From Sphingopyxis sp. (lineage in GTDB: Bacteria > Pseudomonadota > Alphaproteobacteria > Sphingomonadales > Sphingomonadaceae), in assembly GCA_016463225.1 (NCBI GenBank), contig JAEMRT010000004.1, positions 62,001-126,000 of the forward strand: a DNA stretch of 64,000 nt. The letters run 5' to 3'. The position numbers and the translations under genes were made by a program. Under the pieces are notes generated by a model. That model did no database searches. It was given only the letters and a program-made list of their open reading frames with translations, and was not told the origin of the DNA. Below, one piece after another: positions 1-8,602 of this stretch. Position 1 is the first letter of the stretch. Every line of letters starts with the position of its first letter.

Positions 1-1088
1 ATCCAGTAGCCTGCCACGCCATCTTCCCGGAGCTGGTTCCATACGGCGCGTGCCAGCTGCGTTTTCCCGATCCCCGCTTCCCCGACGAACGACAAGCTGG
101 TCGTTTCCGCGGCAAAGCAGCCGATGGCCTCGGCCAGCTCGGCATCGCGGCCGAAAAGAAGCGTCGCCATCGCTTCTTTCCCGGGTCCGGTCGCGTTGTT
201 GGCTGGTTGCCTGATATCGACCGCGCCGCGGTCCAGCGCCGCACATCTTTTTGCCGCCCGGTTTATGGGTTGCCCGTGAATAACCGCAATTCCATGCAAC
301 CGACCCCTGAATATGTCTCCTTCGGCATGCGCTACGGCGCAATTCGCCCCCTGCGCATTCAACGCTTCCACAAGCAGACCGACATCGGCAAGGGCAAGGA
401 CCTGCCGCGACCGCAGCGAGAGCCGCAACATGATGCCTTTTTCATCATGGCCCAGCCTCTCCATCTGGCCGCCTATGGGGTCGCACCAATCGCTGACGGT
501 GGCCAGAAACGCGCGAAGATCATGCTCGGCAAGGCTTTGCCAATTCTCCCGGTCGCAAAGCCGTACGAACAGGCATTGCTCGGTCTGAAGCTTGCCATCG
601 CTGTCGGCGACCCAGTTTCGGAACGAGCCCTGGCCGGTAGGCCGAGGCTCGTCAGCTCGCCGCGGCGCGGCGGCCAGCGCCAGATGCAGCCGATGCATGG
701 GTTCGCCCCAAAACAGGAATGGCTGACCGGGCACAAGTCCCTGGAGGTCGGTGCGACGCAGCCTCCCGGAGGTCCAGGCGGATCGTATCGTGAGTCCCGA
801 GGCCCGGGCGTGAGCACGCTCGGCCGCCGCCAGTGCTTCGTCCACGGCGCAGGCTTCGACAGGCCCGGCAAAGAGCAGGCCGTCCCCGCTGCTCTCAAAG
901 GGCGCAAGACCGATCTGCGCAAGCTGCCCGACAACCGCTTCGCTGCCGCGCGACAAGGTTGCAGCGGCAATTTCTCCAGCCTCGCGGCCGTGGCGGAGCG
1001 CCATATCCTCGACAGCCTTGGAAAAGCCGTTGATATCGTATCCGGCAACCAGCACCTCCTCGAAGCCAGGTACGGGCGAATACGGCAT
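1..1088 (-). CDS. Nucleotide-cyclase-like domain + AAA/LuxR-type ATPase (3' part runs off the window)
   Basis: Not in the ORF track because it is open at the window edge. Reverse frame from ATG at 1088 reads MPYSPVPGFEEVLVAGYDINGFSKAVEDM...SSGDGLLFAG...KEAMATLLFGRDAELAEAIGCFAAETTSLSFVGEAGIGKTQLARAVWNQL: cyclase-like D-[IN]-GF and SGDG motifs, then Walker A GEAGIGKT. Confidence 0.8.
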   Translation of the reverse strand, partial: MPYSPVPGFEEVLVAGYDINGFSKAVEDMALRHGREAGEIAAATLSRGSEAVVGQLAQIGLAPFESSGDGLLFAGPVEACAVDEALAAAERAHARASGLTIRSAWTSGRLRRTDLQGLVPGQPFLFWGEPMHRLHLALAAAPRRADEPRPTGQGSFRNWVADSDGKLQTEQCLFVRLCDRENWQSLAEHDLRAFLATVSDWCDPIGGQMERLGHDEKGIMLRLSLRSRQVLALADVGLLVEALNAQGANCAVAHAEGDIFRGRLHGIAVIHGQPINRAAKRCAALDRGAVDIRQPANNATGPGKEAMATLLFGRDAELAEAIGCFAAETTSLSFVGEAGIGKTQLARAVWNQLREDGVAGYW

Positions 1089-1090
1089 CG

Positions 1091-3151
1091 TCAATTCCTG
1101 TCGGTCTCGCCGTAAATGGTGCGCGGATACCCGCATATGGCCCGCGCGCACATCCGGGCCGACATGATCGCGCTCTCCACGGCGCCGCAGTCGAAATTGT
1201 GTCTTGTCCAGTCGCCCGCCAGAAACAGGTTGGCAAAGCCGCTCCCGTCGGGGGCGAGACGCGCGTCGGTCGAACCAGCCGGCGACGTGACGTAGAGTTT
1301 CGCGGGATCGGAATTTATCACCGTCACGCGCTCGCGATCGGGTTCGAGCCCGTCATCGGTCCGCCGCAATCCGGGAAATATGTCGGCCAGACGCAGGTTC
1401 ATCCACTCCTCGACGAGCTGCGCCGCCCGTCCATGCTCGCTGGCCGGTTCGTCTTCGCCCGGATCCGTCTTCGCGAGCGGCACCGCGCCGCAGAAATAGG
1501 ACAGGCTCCCGGCGCGCTCACCTGCAGCGTCGGCCTGTTCCAGCGACAACAGGAAACTCATGTCGGCCCAGGTGTCGAGCGGAAGTTCGTGGGCTGTCAT
1601 CAGCCCGCGTTCCGAGAGTCCGTCGAAGTTATCGACCCGCTCCTGCCGCCAGCATTGTGCCGCGAGCGTCGGCGCGGTCCCGGCTGTCGCCAGCATCTTG
1701 TCCCATGCCTCATTTTCATCGGCGAGCGGTCGCGCGATGATACGCAGCATGCCGGGAGGGATGGCGAGAATGCAGAGATCGAAGTCTGCTCCGGCATCAA
1801 GCCTCCTGGAATGGCTGTCCGGCGGCAGTGGGCCATGGAAGGATTCAAGATCGATGCCGGCCGTGCGAAGCGCTTCGCCGTTTTCAAGCAGGTCCCATTG
1901 GGGTTCGGTCGGCCAGCAGCGCCGCTCGGGCGCCTCGGCATGCGGTCGATAGCGGACTACAGGATCATATTCGCCCTTGGACCTGGCCTGGACCTGAAAT
2001 TCGATGGACCCCACACTGCCGAAGCCATCGGGGTACAGCGCGGTTACCTTGTGAAAGAAGTGAAAGCGGACCCCGCGCCGACGCAGCACGTCGTAATAGG
2101 GAAGGACAAAGACTTCCCCCATCCCGCCGTTCATATGGTAGAAGAGGTTGCCGTGCGACGCGAAAAGCATCCGGAAATAAGCCCGTAGCGCCGTACCAGC
2201 GGCGAAATCCTTTTGCAGCGGATCGCCATCGGTGAAGGCAAAGGCATAGCTGTAGCCGGCCAGATAGTTTCCGTTGCGAAGCACCCTCTCGCTAGCGCCA
2301 TGTCGGGATAGCCACACGCGCGCGTCATATCTGTCGATCGCCTGGAACCCTGTGGCGAAGACGCGGTCCCGGACCAGCCCGCGGACAATGACCATGGCCA
2401 GCCCCGCGAGACCGATCCAGTCGGCATTTTCAACGGGCACCAACCCGTCGTCCTTCGATGCTATCCATTGCAACGCGCCGCTCGCCGCCTCGATGACGGC
2501 CGCTTCAGACGAGGCAGCGTCCTTGCCCGGCTTCCCAAGCTCGGCCGCCGCCGCCTCGGCGGTCGCCAGCGACGCCGCCAGCACGCCAAGCTCCACCGCG
2601 TCGAATTTCGCGAAAGCTCCGGAACGCGGCGATGCCTTGCCGACAAGCGCCCCGCCAAAGGGGTCGCTTCCTTCGATCATCGCCGTAAATCCCAGCCGCG
2701 CCCACGACAGAAGGCGCCGGATGATCGTCGCTGGCGTGACCTCTTCGGGATCGATGCCCGGGATCCGTTTGTCCGCAGCCATGTCGTAGCGCGTTTCGCG
2801 CATCGGGGCGCCGGGCTCGCGTTGCATGACCGAAAAGCGGCCATATGGAAAAAAGGCATCTTCGAAACGAAGCGACAAGTCGTCAGGATGCTCGTTCCAG
2901 GCCGAGTAGAGCGGGCGAAGCTGCTGGAAGCTGTTGTGGTAGAAGCCGCCAAGGATATGCAGGCCGTGCTCCTCGTTCCGAAAACGCCTGGCGGCATTGC
3001 GCCCCGAAGCGGCCTTGCCGCCGAGGCGCCACCCCATCGCATAAACGTCGATCTCGAACCGGTCTTGCCAGTCGGGAGATTCGGTAATTTCCCATATGGC
3101 GCCGAGCGCGCCCGGCCCGCTCCCCAGCACCGCAATCTTCGTGCGTTCCAT
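1091..3151 (-). CDS. NAD(P)/FAD-dependent oxidoreductase (amine oxidase / phytoene desaturase-like)
   Basis: MERTKIAVLGSGPGALGAIWEI (GxGxxG Rossmann), MGWRLGGKAASGRN, C-terminal FLAGDWT FAD motif; internal ATG at 3151 preferred over 3211. Confidence 0.85.
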   Translation of the reverse strand: MERTKIAVLGSGPGALGAIWEITESPDWQDRFEIDVYAMGWRLGGKAASGRNAARRFRNEEHGLHILGGFYHNSFQQLRPLYSAWNEHPDDLSLRFEDAFFPYGRFSVMQREPGAPMRETRYDMAADKRIPGIDPEEVTPATIIRRLLSWARLGFTAMIEGSDPFGGALVGKASPRSGAFAKFDAVELGVLAASLATAEAAAAELGKPGKDAASSEAAVIEAASGALQWIASKDDGLVPVENADWIGLAGLAMVIVRGLVRDRVFATGFQAIDRYDARVWLSRHGASERVLRNGNYLAGYSYAFAFTDGDPLQKDFAAGTALRAYFRMLFASHGNLFYHMNGGMGEVFVLPYYDVLRRRGVRFHFFHKVTALYPDGFGSVGSIEFQVQARSKGEYDPVVRYRPHAEAPERRCWPTEPQWDLLENGEALRTAGIDLESFHGPLPPDSHSRRLDAGADFDLCILAIPPGMLRIIARPLADENEAWDKMLATAGTAPTLAAQCWRQERVDNFDGLSERGLMTAHELPLDTWADMSFLLSLEQADAAGERAGSLSYFCGAVPLAKTDPGEDEPASEHGRAAQLVEEWMNLRLADIFPGLRRTDDGLEPDRERVTVINSDPAKLYVTSPAGSTDARLAPDGSGFANLFLAGDWTRHNFDCGAVESAIMSARMCARAICGYPRTIYGETDRN

Positions 3152-3253
3152 CCTCGCCCCCTGTTTCCTAGCTAATATGTTTCCGGCCCTGCAGAAAGCG
3201 CGAATAGGCACCGGGACGAGGTATCATGCGCCCGCTCCCGGCAAACGTCGCTG

Positions 3254-3910
3254 TCATGGCGCCGTCAACCGCAGCACGGCATCGGCCGCCGCGAGCATTC
3301 GGCGATCTTCCGATGCACCGATCACGATCGCGTGACGGTCGTGCGCATAGGACCGCAGCAGCGTCGCGACCCCGACCGCATCATGGTCGAGCATGCCCCT
3401 CGTCGGGTCGTCCGCCAGCACGATGAGCGGTTCGGAGCAAAGCGCCTGGACGATAACCATTCGCCGTAAGTCGACCGACCCGAACTCCGCAGGCAAGCCA
3501 TCCAGAAGATGAGCCATGCCGAGGAGGGAGGCCATCGCTTCACCTTGCCGGATCGCCTCCGGCTGTTCGCGAAGGGCTGCGACCATTTTCAGATTTTCCC
3601 GGAACGTCAGGAGCGGCACGAAGCCACTGTCGGGCCCTATCGTCGCGATGTGACGCGCGCGCCATCGTTGCGCCCCGGCGGGATCCAGCGCCGACAGTCG
3701 CTCATCGCCGAAAAATATATCGCCGCGAGCCGCGGCTACGGTGAGCGACAGGATGGAAATCAGACTGGACTTGCCGGATCCCCGCCCCCCCGAGACGACG
3801 TGAAACATCCCGGCCGTAAAGGTCGCGGTGACCGGCGAAAGAACGCACCGGATTTCCTCACCCTCGCGGACCAGCTGGCTGACCCTCTCGACCCGCAGAT
3901 GCGTCGTCAT
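3254..3910 (-). CDS. ABC-type ATPase, LolD-like but with degenerate catalytic motifs
   Basis: Walker A GGRGSGKSS and Walker B-like LIVLADDPTRGMLD; signature LSGGQ replaced by EFGSVDLRR. Confidence 0.75.
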   Translation of the reverse strand: MTTHLRVERVSQLVREGEEIRCVLSPVTATFTAGMFHVVSGGRGSGKSSLISILSLTVAAARGDIFFGDERLSALDPAGAQRWRARHIATIGPDSGFVPLLTFRENLKMVAALREQPEAIRQGEAMASLLGMAHLLDGLPAEFGSVDLRRMVIVQALCSEPLIVLADDPTRGMLDHDAVGVATLLRSYAHDRHAIVIGASEDRRMLAAADAVLRLTAP

Positions 3911-3934
3911 CCTGCGAACTCGCGCCCCTCGCCT

Positions 3935-5191
3935 TCAATTGCGACTGTTGTAGTAGGACGTGATCGCCGACGCCTTTGTGGGCGGCGTGAAAGTGATGCC
4001 GATCAGGGCTTTCGTATCGTCGTCGATACCTTTCCCGGTCACGCGGCCAAGCGTTGCGGTCGCCCAGATGCCGTTGCTGATCCGGAAATTGGCGCTCCCG
4101 AGAAACCGCCAGTAGTTCCGGTCCTCTTCGTCGGGCAAAACGGCATTCTGGCGGTTCCAGCCCGCCTGCAGGCTCCAGCGGAGTCGCTCGGTCCGCTTGG
4201 GGTCGTCGGAGGGAACCGACTCGATGCCGCCCACAAGCGAGAGCGCGTTGCGCTTGCCCTGGGGAAGGAAGGCGTCGTCGTAGATCGTCTCCCTCAGCGT
4301 ATAGCGAACATGCGCCAGTGCCCGGATATGCAGCGCGCCCAGCGGACCCTCCTCGCGGGCGGCAGAGCGTCCGAGCACGCCCGTCGCAAACGTTGCCCAC
4401 AAAATCGTGCCCGATGACTCCAGGCCCCGCAGCTTTCCGGGTTCACCCGACATCCGGACCCCGACGCCGGCGTCGAGCGAGGAGCGCGCCACCATGCGTT
4501 TGGCTTGCTGCGTCACGCATTCGGCATAGGCTTTGCCGATCTCGGTTTCTTTCGCTTTGGCGAATTCGGCATATTTGGCCTCGGCGGCCACTTGCCGGTC
4601 GCCGAGCGGGAGAGGCTCGATGGCCGCGGCGACGAAGGCCTCTGCTTCCTTGAAATGACGACCGACCGCACCTGTCACGATGCACGTGTCGAAGTCGGCA
4701 TCATAAAGCCGGTCCTGGGCGTCGAGCAGCTTGGCGCTGAGCGAGGCTACAAAGGATGACGGCTTGCCCGTGCCCTTGTCGCCTTCGCTGACGGCAAGAC
4801 CGACCTTTGTCCGCGCGGCAATCCGTCCGAGTGCGGACTGGCGACGATAGTCCCAAAGGCTGGTGGGCGCGGTCGACAACAGCCAATATGGCGAGAAGTC
4901 GATCGCGACGGCGGGCGCTGCATCGCCCGACCCTATCCCGCTGAGGACGTTGATCCCGAATTTGCGCAGCGAGTCGACGCGCGTGATCTGGTCGTTGGTC
5001 ACGCCGATCAGCGGCAGCACCGGGGAGTTCGGCGAGTCATACGAGAATTCGAAGAGCGAATCGTCGAGCGCCGCATCCTTGAGGATGGTAACAATTTGCT
5101 CGGCATCGGCGGCGGGCTGCTGCGCATTGGCCGGGGGCGCCGCGAAGACGGCGAGCGCGACCGGGACGATCGACAGTTGGCAGGAACGCAT
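3935..5191 (-). CDS. Exported hypothetical protein, possibly outer-membrane
   Basis: Signal peptide MRSCQLSIVPVALAVFAAPPANAQQ; alternating strand-like C-terminal half; start at ATG 5191. Confidence 0.65.
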   Translation of the reverse strand: MRSCQLSIVPVALAVFAAPPANAQQPAADAEQIVTILKDAALDDSLFEFSYDSPNSPVLPLIGVTNDQITRVDSLRKFGINVLSGIGSGDAAPAVAIDFSPYWLLSTAPTSLWDYRRQSALGRIAARTKVGLAVSEGDKGTGKPSSFVASLSAKLLDAQDRLYDADFDTCIVTGAVGRHFKEAEAFVAAAIEPLPLGDRQVAAEAKYAEFAKAKETEIGKAYAECVTQQAKRMVARSSLDAGVGVRMSGEPGKLRGLESSGTILWATFATGVLGRSAAREEGPLGALHIRALAHVRYTLRETIYDDAFLPQGKRNALSLVGGIESVPSDDPKRTERLRWSLQAGWNRQNAVLPDEEDRNYWRFLGSANFRISNGIWATATLGRVTGKGIDDDTKALIGITFTPPTKASAITSYYNSRN

Positions 5192-5202
5192 CGGGATTCT
5201 CC

Positions 5203-5640
5203 TCACGCGAAGGTGATGATGTCGAAGCCCATCGCCACCGATTTGCCGGTGGGAAAGGAGCGGAGCGCGGTGCAGAGCCAACCGTCGGGATCGAGCGGCA
5301 GTGACGTGCCTTCGTCGTCGCACACCGGCAATGGCGTCCCGCTGCGGACAACGCGTATGCACCAGCCCCATTTGTCGTCGGGCGCGCCGGGAGCTTTCGC
5401 GGCGCCGCACGCGAAGAGCAGCGACGGCGGATTGTTCGACGTGGGCGCGCTCCTGAGCGTGGCGACATTCGCGGCGCTGATCGCGGCGATCGCGAAGGGG
5501 CCGCCGGTAGCAAAGGGAATATCGATGTCCGGACCCGGGAGCATCAGTCGCAGCATCGGGCTCATGACGAAAGGCCGGAGCGTGCGCACCTGAAGTTCAA
5601 CCGCACCCGCACCCACTTGCCAGACCTTATAGCGCGACAT
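5203..5640 (-). CDS. Hypothetical protein, 145 aa, first gene of the cluster
   Basis: ORF co-directional with and 11 bp upstream of the next gene; no family recognised. Confidence 0.55.
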   Translation of the reverse strand: MSRYKVWQVGAGAVELQVRTLRPFVMSPMLRLMLPGPDIDIPFATGGPFAIAAISAANVATLRSAPTSNNPPSLLFACGAAKAPGAPDDKWGWCIRVVRSGTPLPVCDDEGTSLPLDPDGWLCTALRSFPTGKSVAMGFDIITFA

Positions 5641-5719
5641 GTCTCTTCCCCTCCAATGGATGCGGAGATCTCTGCATCCGGACCGGGGGCAATGTCGGTC
5701 ACGCGCCGCACAGCGATCT

Positions 5720-5735
5720 TGTGCTTTTCAGCACA
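5720..5735. promoter_or_regulatory. Putative Crp/Fnr-family operator TGTGCTTTTCAGCACA
   Basis: Perfect 5-bp inverted repeat with 6-bp spacer (geometry of TGTGA-N6-TCACA) in the divergent intergenic region 5641-5762. Confidence 0.55.
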
Positions 5736-5762
5736 TTCGCGCACTAGGGAACGGGGGATGGA

Positions 5763-6455
5763 ATGCAGCAATCCAGTGCGCGAGTGCCGATATCGGAGAC
5801 AATCGTCCCGGACGAAATACGCGACATTCTGCTGGCGCATGCGCGGCCCGTGCGGGCGCGCAAGGGACATATCCTCATCGCCGCCGGCCTCGACGCCAAA
5901 GATGTCTTCCTCGTTCTCGAGGGCCGGGTTCAGGTCACGTTGTTGTCGCCGCAAGGTCGCGAGACGATCATTCGGGAAATCGGTCCGGGCCAGATTTTCG
6001 GCGAGTTGGCGGCGATCGACGGCGAAGTGCGCTCAGCCAATGTCACCGCGGTCGAACCGAGCCACATCGCGATGCTCGCCGGCCCCACCTTTCTGGAGCT
6101 GATCGGGTCGAACGATGCCCTCGCGCGGTGGATCGCGCTGCATCTTACCACGCAGATCCGCTTTCTCACCGCTCGCATCTATGAGCTGTCGACCATGTCC
6201 GTTGGCAGCCGGCTACAATGCGAACTCATGCGCCTGTGCATCGAGCATGGGATCGAGAACGATCAGGCGATTATCGAGAATGCGCCCACGCACGCCGACC
6301 TGGCAGCGCGGATCGGAACGAACCGGGAGTCCGTCACGCGCGAACTGGGGCTGCTTGCAGAGGAAGCAATCGTCTATCAGTCGGGCCGCCGCCTGCACAT
6401 TTTGTCCGTCGGCAAATTGGGAACGCTCGTCCGGCGCCTGGCCGCTCACGGCTGA
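5763..6455 (+). CDS. Crp/Fnr family transcriptional regulator
   Basis: Cyclic-nucleotide-binding fold with FGELAAIDGEVRSANVTA phosphate-binding cassette-like motif; HTH ADLAARIGTNRESVTRELGLL. Confidence 0.9.
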   Translation: MQQSSARVPISETIVPDEIRDILLAHARPVRARKGHILIAAGLDAKDVFLVLEGRVQVTLLSPQGRETIIREIGPGQIFGELAAIDGEVRSANVTAVEPSHIAMLAGPTFLELIGSNDALARWIALHLTTQIRFLTARIYELSTMSVGSRLQCELMRLCIEHGIENDQAIIENAPTHADLAARIGTNRESVTRELGLLAEEAIVYQSGRRLHILSVGKLGTLVRRLAAHG

Positions 6456-7589: not shown

Positions 7590-8060
7590 TTAGGATTGGC
7601 GTGTGAACGCCATGACCCAATTGGTCTCCCAGCTCGCGCCGCCGTCAGCGGAGAAGGCTTGTTCCCATTGCGCGAAGTCGAGGGTAATCTTCGACCAGAT
7701 GAATCGGACATCGATCGGCACGCCAGCCAGTTCGTCTTGACCCAGGAAGGTGCCAACGCCGTTGTCGAACCGACCGTGTACCGGGGCCGCGAGGCCGGGA
7801 AAGCGCGGGTCGATCCACCAGATCGACCAGATGCCCGTCGCGGGATCGGTGCGCCGCACAGCCGCCGCGACATAGGCGCCGTTCGGGTCGTCGAGCCACT
7901 GATCTTCGACATTGCCAGTGCCTCCCAGCAATTCCCATGCCCGGCACGTGCCGCCAAATTCGAACCAGTCGTCGCTCCCGGCAAGCCGCTGGCGCAATTT
8001 GCGATGCGCTACGGTCCAAGTTCCGGTCTGAAATGCGAAATCGTGCAATCCCGTCGTCAT
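7590..8060 (-). CDS. DUF1579-like protein (copy 1)
   Basis: MTTGLHDFAFQTGTWTVAHRKLRQRLAGSDDWFEFGGTCRAWELLGGTGNVED; paralogous to the next gene. Confidence 0.75.
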   Translation of the reverse strand: MTTGLHDFAFQTGTWTVAHRKLRQRLAGSDDWFEFGGTCRAWELLGGTGNVEDQWLDDPNGAYVAAAVRRTDPATGIWSIWWIDPRFPGLAAPVHGRFDNGVGTFLGQDELAGVPIDVRFIWSKITLDFAQWEQAFSADGGASWETNWVMAFTRQS

Positions 8061-8602
8061 GCCTGCTCCATCCGCGTAAATTCCATGATCCAGTTGGTTT
8101 CCCAATTCGCGCCGCCGTCGGCCGAGAAGGCCTGGCTCCAGCGCGCATCTTGCGGACCCAGATCTTCATAGGTGAAGCGCACCCGGATGACGCGCCCTTC
8201 GAAGCTGTCGTCGCTGTAGAATTTCCCGACCGGTCCGTCGAAAACCCCAACGACGGGCGTATCGATCCCGGCGTAACGCCCGTCGATCCAGTATATCGAC
8301 CATATTCCTTGCGCTGCATCGAACAGCCGGAGCGATGTCGCCTGATATCGCCCGTCCGGATCGTCGAGGTCGTTGCGGTCGATGTTACCGGCGCCGGCAA
8401 GAATGGGACCGACATCAAGCGTCCCGGGAAATTCGAACCAGTCGTCGTTGCCCTGCAGGCGCTGGCGCCTTTTGCGATGCAGAACGCGCCATTGTCCGAC
8501 GAGGAAGTCGAACCCGCTCGAGAGCAATGGGGCAGGGTCGGCAGCCATCAGTTCGGCTTGCGACAGGAAGGGATCAGGTTCGGGAGCGGTCGCATCTGGC
8601 AA
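8057..8602 (-). CDS. DUF1579-like protein (copy 2)
   Basis: FDFLVGQWRVLHRKRRQRLQGNDDWFEFPGTLDVGPILAGAGNIDRNDLDDP; overlaps the downstream start by 4 bp. Confidence 0.75.
   Translation of the reverse strand: MPDATAPEPDPFLSQAELMAADPAPLLSSGFDFLVGQWRVLHRKRRQRLQGNDDWFEFPGTLDVGPILAGAGNIDRNDLDDPDGRYQATSLRLFDAAQGIWSIYWIDGRYAGIDTPVVGVFDGPVGKFYSDDSFEGRVIRVRFTYEDLGPQDARWSQAFSADGGANWETNWIMEFTRMEQA

Follow-up and report, generated by a model that had tools for sequence, protein, structure and literature searches.

Among the described systems closest to the locus considered here, the FAD enzyme CLA-HY and CLA-DC, an enzyme of the acetoacetate decarboxylase (ADC) family, of Lactobacillus plantarum serve one fatty-acid pathway (PMC13365329). 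We analyzed a locus of Sphingopyxis sp. in which the genes for an FAD/NAD(P)-binding oxidoreductase (P0002), a signaling protein resembling human soluble adenylyl cyclase (sAC; ADCY10) (P0001) and an ADC-like enzyme (P0006) follow one another, with a gene for a Crp/Fnr regulator (P0007) in divergent orientation. The results support the presence of a conserved cyclic-nucleotide-linked module at this locus, and they support that the linkage of oxidoreductase, cyclase and Crp is not due to chance. No published description of an FAD/ADC/signaling module was found in the literature, the coverage of which is incomplete for subscription papers; an earlier note on this DNA, drawn up from its letters, had likewise not recognized the arrangement as a named system.

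The window (the whole stretch analyzed, 64 kb) corresponds to positions 62001-126000 of contig C21 in a 5.6-Mb draft assembly of Sphingopyxis sp. with a completeness of 96% and a contamination of 7%. Coordinates within the window count from its first letter, and those prefixed G000:C21 refer to the contig. The features of the proposed module are as follows.

1..1088 (whole gene G000:C21:59705-63088), minus strand: P0001, sAC-like signaling protein of 1,127 aa, of which the N-terminal 362 aa lie in the window; assigned by AAA_16 (E=2.8e-12), profiles and fold
Parts of P0001: C1 at about aa 10-140; C2 at about aa 166-290; start of a STAND NTPase with Walker A GEAGIGKT at aa 336; predicted TPR-like C-terminal part left of the window
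1091..3151, minus strand: P0002, FAD/NAD(P)-binding oxidoreductase, 686 aa; assigned by Amino_oxidase, NAD_binding_8 and fold
G000:C21:58798-59703, minus strand: P0006, ADC-like gene; GRE-x-x-G-x-PK motif with its Lys
5720..5735, strandless: TGTGCTTTTCAGCACA, candidate dyad for Crp binding, within the 122 bp between the divergent genes
5763..6455, plus strand: P0007, Crp/Fnr regulator, 230 aa; PF00027, HTH_Crp_2, GEL...RS cassette and RE...R recognition helix

Five minus-strand open reading frames (ORFs) with gaps of 11, 24, 102 and 2 bp and a divergent plus-strand Crp/Fnr gene were found just as the earlier note had described them, and GC content by codon position is coding-like in each of them. 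The note had also expected the cluster to run on to the left: read leftwards on the contig, the P0001 gene extends ~2.3 kb beyond the edge of the window, and a sixth minus-strand gene, that of the ADC-like P0006, starts 1 bp after it. The gap between the P0002 and P0001 genes is 2 bp, and 102 bp separate P0002 from the ABC ATPase gene P0003. Judged from the 2-bp and 1-bp gaps, P0002, P0001 and P0006 are predicted to be translationally coupled. Scans for sigma-70 promoters and terminators gave no signal over chance. The earlier description had one cyclase domain and no ADC-like partner, and did not mention that the signaling partner is exchanged between lineages.

Conservation of the enzyme pair and its signaling partners

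We compared 102 loci around P0002 relatives, picked by P0002 alone, from 84,980 species genomes, whole-genome searches and plasmid records; a simple script supplied the ORF calls for these loci, and the related genomes are not independent samples. An ADC-like domain adjoins or is fused to the oxidoreductase in 87 of the 102 loci, and fusion proteins of the FAD and ADC domains exist with either domain first. In the rhodobacter FAD proteins, an iterative profile search identified the C-terminal extension as a divergent ADC domain. This FAD/ADC core occurs in Proteobacteria, Myxococcota, Acidobacteria, Planctomycetes, Verrucomicrobia, Chloroflexi and Bacteroidota. A signaling gene stands at position +1 in 33/100 loci and at +2 in 24/94, while most distant positions are at roughly 0-4%. 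The partners comprise cyclase-STAND, tandem-cyclase-STAND, kinase-STAND (with or without a cyclase), TIR-cyclase-STAND and TIR-TPR proteins, as well as 7TMR-DISM histidine kinases and diguanylate cyclases; the signaling partner of the FAD/ADC pair is exchanged between lineages. The P0002-P0001 order was found again in three unrelated metagenome-assembled genomes (MAGs), from Caulobacteraceae (L041, 43% identity), Ramlibacter (L042, 43%) and Caulobacter (L044, 35%).

A Crp/Fnr gene is at most four genes away from the FAD gene in 11/31 loci with a cyclase-type partner, compared to 0/71 of the others (p=5e-7). The association persisted when lineages were collapsed by hand from record titles (8/26 vs 0/43, p=2e-4) and within the Alphaproteobacteria alone (8/16 vs 0/11, p=0.008). 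The cAMP cassette (Gly-Glu...Arg-Ser) is retained in all 11 linked Crp proteins, whereas the sole unlinked Crp of the set is without Arg-Ser. In the Caulobacter MAG, the upstream Crp gene encodes a protein 38% identical to P0007, and on an annotated Qingshengfaniella plasmid the FAD-ADC, cyclase and Crp genes are consecutive. The assignment of P0007 as a cyclic-nucleotide-binding transcription factor, proposed in the earlier note, agrees with its predicted domains (PF00027, E=8e-21; HTH_Crp_2, 5e-9), its cAMP phosphate-binding cassette GEL...RS and its Crp-like recognition helix RE...R.

The dyad is the sole exact TGTG-N8-CACA in the 64-kb window, where 0.37 are expected, and the chance of its falling inside the 122-bp divergent Crp/operon intergenic region is ~7e-4, an optimistic value because the pattern was picked after the dyad had been seen. 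The fairer test comes from the other loci: upstream of cyclase-type operons there are 3 exact dyads vs 0.15 expected (0/200 shuffles as high), and upstream of the other loci 1 vs 0.38. Sites of the form TGTGA-N6-TCACA with two mismatches showed no window-wide enrichment (8 vs 11 expected).

The earlier note had treated all genes of the cluster as one unit and had proposed to check their neighborhood conservation. The link of oxidoreductase, cyclase and Crp stands, given the three MAGs, the Crp association and the dyad, and the FAD/ADC/signaling core recurs; P0003, P0004 and P0005 (the ABC ATPase, exported and 145-aa genes) are not co-conserved in the related loci and were rejected as parts of the module.

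3254..3910, minus strand: P0003, degenerate ABC ATPase, 218 aa
3935..5191, minus strand: P0004, exported protein, ~418 aa, signal-peptide-like N-terminus; orphan
5203..5640, minus strand: P0005, 145 aa, unknown family

P0003 is degenerate as the note had said: Walker A (GGRGSGKSS) is kept, but FGSVD stands where LSGGQ would be, Asp takes the place of the catalytic Glu (LADDP) and the H-loop His is absent (GASED). P0004 has no relative in the 298 other genomes of the order searched. Beyond P0006, the contig carries the gene of a TonB-dependent receptor and, in divergent orientation, three genes of an ABC transporter (L002:6754-12453). To the right of the Crp/TetR genes, two adjoining paralogues of ~170-180 aa form a tandem duplication (7590-8105 and 8057-8602, minus strand).

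Several neighborhoods of the pair are distinct in composition. In Janthinobacterium, Massilia, Duganella, Dyella, Azohydromonas, Catenovulum and Pseudoalteromonas (L073, L074, L075, L081, L084, L086, L091, L094-L096, L103, L105, L106, L111, L115, L120), its neighbor is a 7TMR-DISM sensor of the hybrid histidine kinase or GGDEF type. In the sphingomonad loci L026, L031, L040, L077, L032-L035, L038 and L039, TIR-cyclase-STAND or TIR-TPR proteins together with SLATT-like membrane proteins adjoin the enzymes, the cyclase domains of the TIR-cyclase-STAND relatives being visibly degenerate. A second, biosynthetic-looking cluster type combines the FAD enzyme with an unknown 250-318-aa protein, ADC-like genes, a polyprenyl diphosphate synthase and, in many cases, a saccharopine-dehydrogenase-like protein (L024, L025, L027-L030, L036, L037, L093, L104, L112, L113). 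In sphingomonads, the pair is accompanied by a polyprenyl synthase and further genes. In L032-L035, the gene directly upstream of the FAD-ADC fusion encodes a CruF-like protein of carotenoid biosynthesis (PF04240; 1.7e-32 in L034). After the gene for the FAD enzyme, plasmid p4 of Azospirillum argentinense (L124) carries one annotated as an outer membrane transport protein and an ADC-NAD(P)-binding pair, with a large AAA family ATPase alongside.

Architecture and active sites of the core proteins

In P0001, Pfam detected solely the AAA_16/STAND domain; no standard library labels the protein a cyclase, and the PF00211 profile does not recognize it. Over its N-terminal 320 aa, the protein can be aligned with one relative from each of the Caulobacteraceae, Ramlibacter and Caulobacter MAGs, encoded directly downstream of a P0002 relative, and with four longer tandem-cyclase STAND proteins of other loci. 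The best PDB match of one of the latter (from L087) is human ADCY10 (E=7e-25), and the match of the joint profile (A2) to ADCY10 extends through both cyclase domains (E=4e-47); a profile of the P0001-type subgroup alone has ADCY10 as its sole, weak match (E=0.013). An hhalign comparison of the P0001-type group with the bacterial sAC-type tandem-cyclase proteins gave 97.7%. The AlphaFold two-domain model of the cyclase part is fairly confident (pLDDT 77, pTM 0.76), and a Foldseek search with it returned human sAC-cAMP at the top (E=6.6e-12), sAC making up most of the top 30. P0001 has the layout C1-C2-STAND-TPR of human sAC, the TPR part being predicted from the relatives.

At ~30% identity, 8/8 aligned proteins share D18 and D69 (C1) and N276 (C2) without variation. 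We take these residues, together with K280, to match D47, D99, N412 and R416 in the numbering of sAC. The pattern is that of a composite, single-site cyclase arrangement, the activity of which is uncertain because the catalytic Arg is replaced by Lys throughout the subgroup. The earlier note had described one cyclase-like domain fused to a P-loop ATPase; the fusion to an AAA_16/STAND domain was borne out, and a single canonical class III domain was rejected in favor of two divergent tandem domains. No P0001-type N-terminus was found in the 384 other Alphaproteobacteria genomes searched, so this subtype is rare.

P0002 exceeds the curated Pfam cut-offs for both Amino_oxidase and NAD_binding_8, and its predicted fold belongs to the amine-oxidase/phytoene-desaturase class. 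Among solved structures, rice phytoene desaturase comes nearest (5mog, E=2e-16; next protein 1e-11), and this nearness to a plant phytoene desaturase is consistent with the lipid or carotenoid-like redox output suggested in the earlier note. The score against the equivalog TIGR02731 (15-cis-phytoene desaturase) is 32.5 bits, which does not reach the cut-off of 569. In P0006, the Schiff-base Lys (K137) is invariant in 11 aligned proteins and fits the ADC motif GRE-x-x-G-x-PK, as compared with 3bgt and 3c8w. The Pfam ADC score of P0006 is 23.6 bits against a cut-off of 29.8, and that of the homologue in L031 is 30.9. Both proteins are probably lipid-modifying enzymes.

Proposed circuit and alternative explanations

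We read the core as the oxidoreductase P0002, the sAC-like P0001 and the ADC-like P0006 which, with the divergent P0007, form a local lipid/cyclic-nucleotide circuit, a reading to which we give about even credence. It draws on the computed gene order, co-conservation, domain architecture, catalytic-residue pattern, cAMP cassette and dyad. From these we infer a scheme for the substrate, the cyclase activity, the ligand and target of the Crp protein, and the direction of regulation. The phytoene-desaturase-like P0002 and then P0006, with its Schiff-base lysine kept, would act on one hydrophobic substrate, probably a lipid or isoprenoid. The STAND-TPR part of P0001 may sense the substrate, the product, or the ATP/energy state, and the composite C1/C2 site would make a cyclic nucleotide, most likely cAMP. 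P0007 would bind this nucleotide, occupy the dyad at 5720-5735 and tune its own expression and that of the operon.

Several observations weigh against such a circuit. In 4/4 P0001-type proteins, Lys (K280) takes the place of the Arg found in sAC (R416), and the residues at the positions for base selection resemble those of neither adenylyl nor guanylyl cyclases, so that the site is possibly weak or dead. The same genome encodes two other canonical class III cyclases as possible cAMP sources, and the Crp ligand could therefore come from elsewhere. No Crp gene is nearby in 20/31 cyclase-type loci, and the dyad shows a symmetric C/G change (TGTGC/GCACA) relative to the consensus of E. coli. The contigs of the closest relatives end before the ADC gene could be seen, and the substrate of P0002 and P0006 is read solely from their fold and neighboring genes.

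Some of these points would fit a dead sAC relative, in which C1-C2 would be an ATP-binding sensor of energy or assembly, both enzymes would be controlled or scaffolded by the STAND-TPR part, and Crp would answer cAMP made elsewhere in the cell, an explanation that is possible but doubtful. The loss of R416 and of the canonical base-recognition residues in the whole subgroup, the failure of PF00211 to recognize P0001 and the two canonical cyclases elsewhere in the genome all favor it, as do the degenerate cyclase domains of the TIR-cyclase-STAND relatives and the presence of 6yii, a class III cyclase-like ATP-binding protein of P. aeruginosa, among the P0001 fold matches. There is also a precedent, since other NTP-dependent conflict systems contain inactive cyclase domains (PMC7159879). 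However, a metal Asp pair and C2 Asn that are invariant at ~30% identity would be unusual in a dead site, and the Crp genes track cyclase-type partners only.

The TIR-cyclase-STAND, TIR-TPR and SLATT-like proteins beside the enzyme pair in sphingomonads, and weak PADLOC matches of relatives to TIR effectors and Pycsar cyclases, are what would be expected if the loci formed a bacterial immune or conflict system, with STAND proteins bearing TIR, cyclase or kinase domains sensing an invader and the enzymes serving as effectors. We consider this very unlikely, as the FAD/ADC enzymes are metabolic and well conserved, ordinary histidine kinases of the 7TMR-DISM type and GGDEF sensors also serve as partners, and isoprenoid genes (polyprenyl synthase, CruF-like) are among some of the neighbors. 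In PADLOC, P0001, P0002, P0004, P0005 and P0006 have no match and P0003 is weakly matched; a named anti-phage defense system was rejected on the core P0001, P0002 and P0006. An ordinary catabolic or biosynthetic operon that acts on double bonds of fatty acids or isoprenoids, under a routine regulator and with a cyclase of no special role, has parallels in the serial action of ADC-family and FAD enzymes on fatty acids in the L. plantarum CLA pathway (PMC13365329), in the outer-membrane transport protein in Azospirillum and in the polyprenyl synthase in sphingomonads, but is quite improbable, as it leaves unexplained the recurrence of a very large STAND or 7TMR signaling protein beside the pair across phyla.

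Beyond the local circuit, the FAD-ADC pair might make a small lipid- or isoprenoid-derived signal or guard a lipid state, with interchangeable receptors (sAC-like cyclase and Crp, TIR-cyclase-STAND, kinase-STAND, 7TMR-DISM) plugged in by evolution. We regard this extension as unlikely; if true, bacteria would have a new kind of signaling module with a messenger not known before, and a bacterial sAC would have an input and an output specific to it. The two-enzyme core has no assigned function that we could find, yet across phyla it is repeatedly coupled to large sensory proteins. Because one branch pairs it with a relative of human sAC, a Crp and a candidate operator, input, messenger and output are testable in one locus, which also offers a direct route to the substrate of the FAD/ADC enzymes.

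Comparison with known systems

The TOMM kinase/cyclase fusion family TIGR03903 is matched in its cyclase-STAND part by many partners in related loci (L031, L048, L045, L087). All related partners score far under the cut-off of 705.75 (highest 262 bits), P0001 itself has no match, and a TOMM cyclase identity was rejected on these scores. TOMM genes were not noticed beside the related loci, although no search was aimed at them.

Like P0002, the plant and cyanobacterial 15-cis-phytoene desaturase (PDS) and HpnE have the desaturase fold and a GWRLGGK-type FAD motif. P0002 differs from them in its ~14% identity, in scores under the curated cut-offs and in an additional helical insert at about aa 140-265. 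P0006 shares the GREIYGYPK motif, with its Schiff-base Lys, with the ADC superfamily, including CLA-DC of L. plantarum; in contrast to that superfamily, it has Cys for the second Lys, scores under the Pfam cut-off and represents a domain type often fused to the FAD enzyme. P0007 resembles cAMP-CRP in the phosphate-binding cassette and recognition helix described above, and is unlike E. coli CRP in its ~22% identity, in its local pairing with a cyclase and in the half-site TGTGC.

The closest likeness of P0001 is to sAC (ADCY10), its top PDB match in both the profile and the fold comparison. ADCY10 and the bacterial sAC-type STAND cyclases have in common with it the C1-C2-STAND NTPase-TPR order, the metal Asp pair of C1 and the Asn of C2. 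P0001 departs from sAC in the replacement of R416 by Lys, in base-recognition residues of neither cyclase type, and in the FAD/ADC genes that adjoin it.

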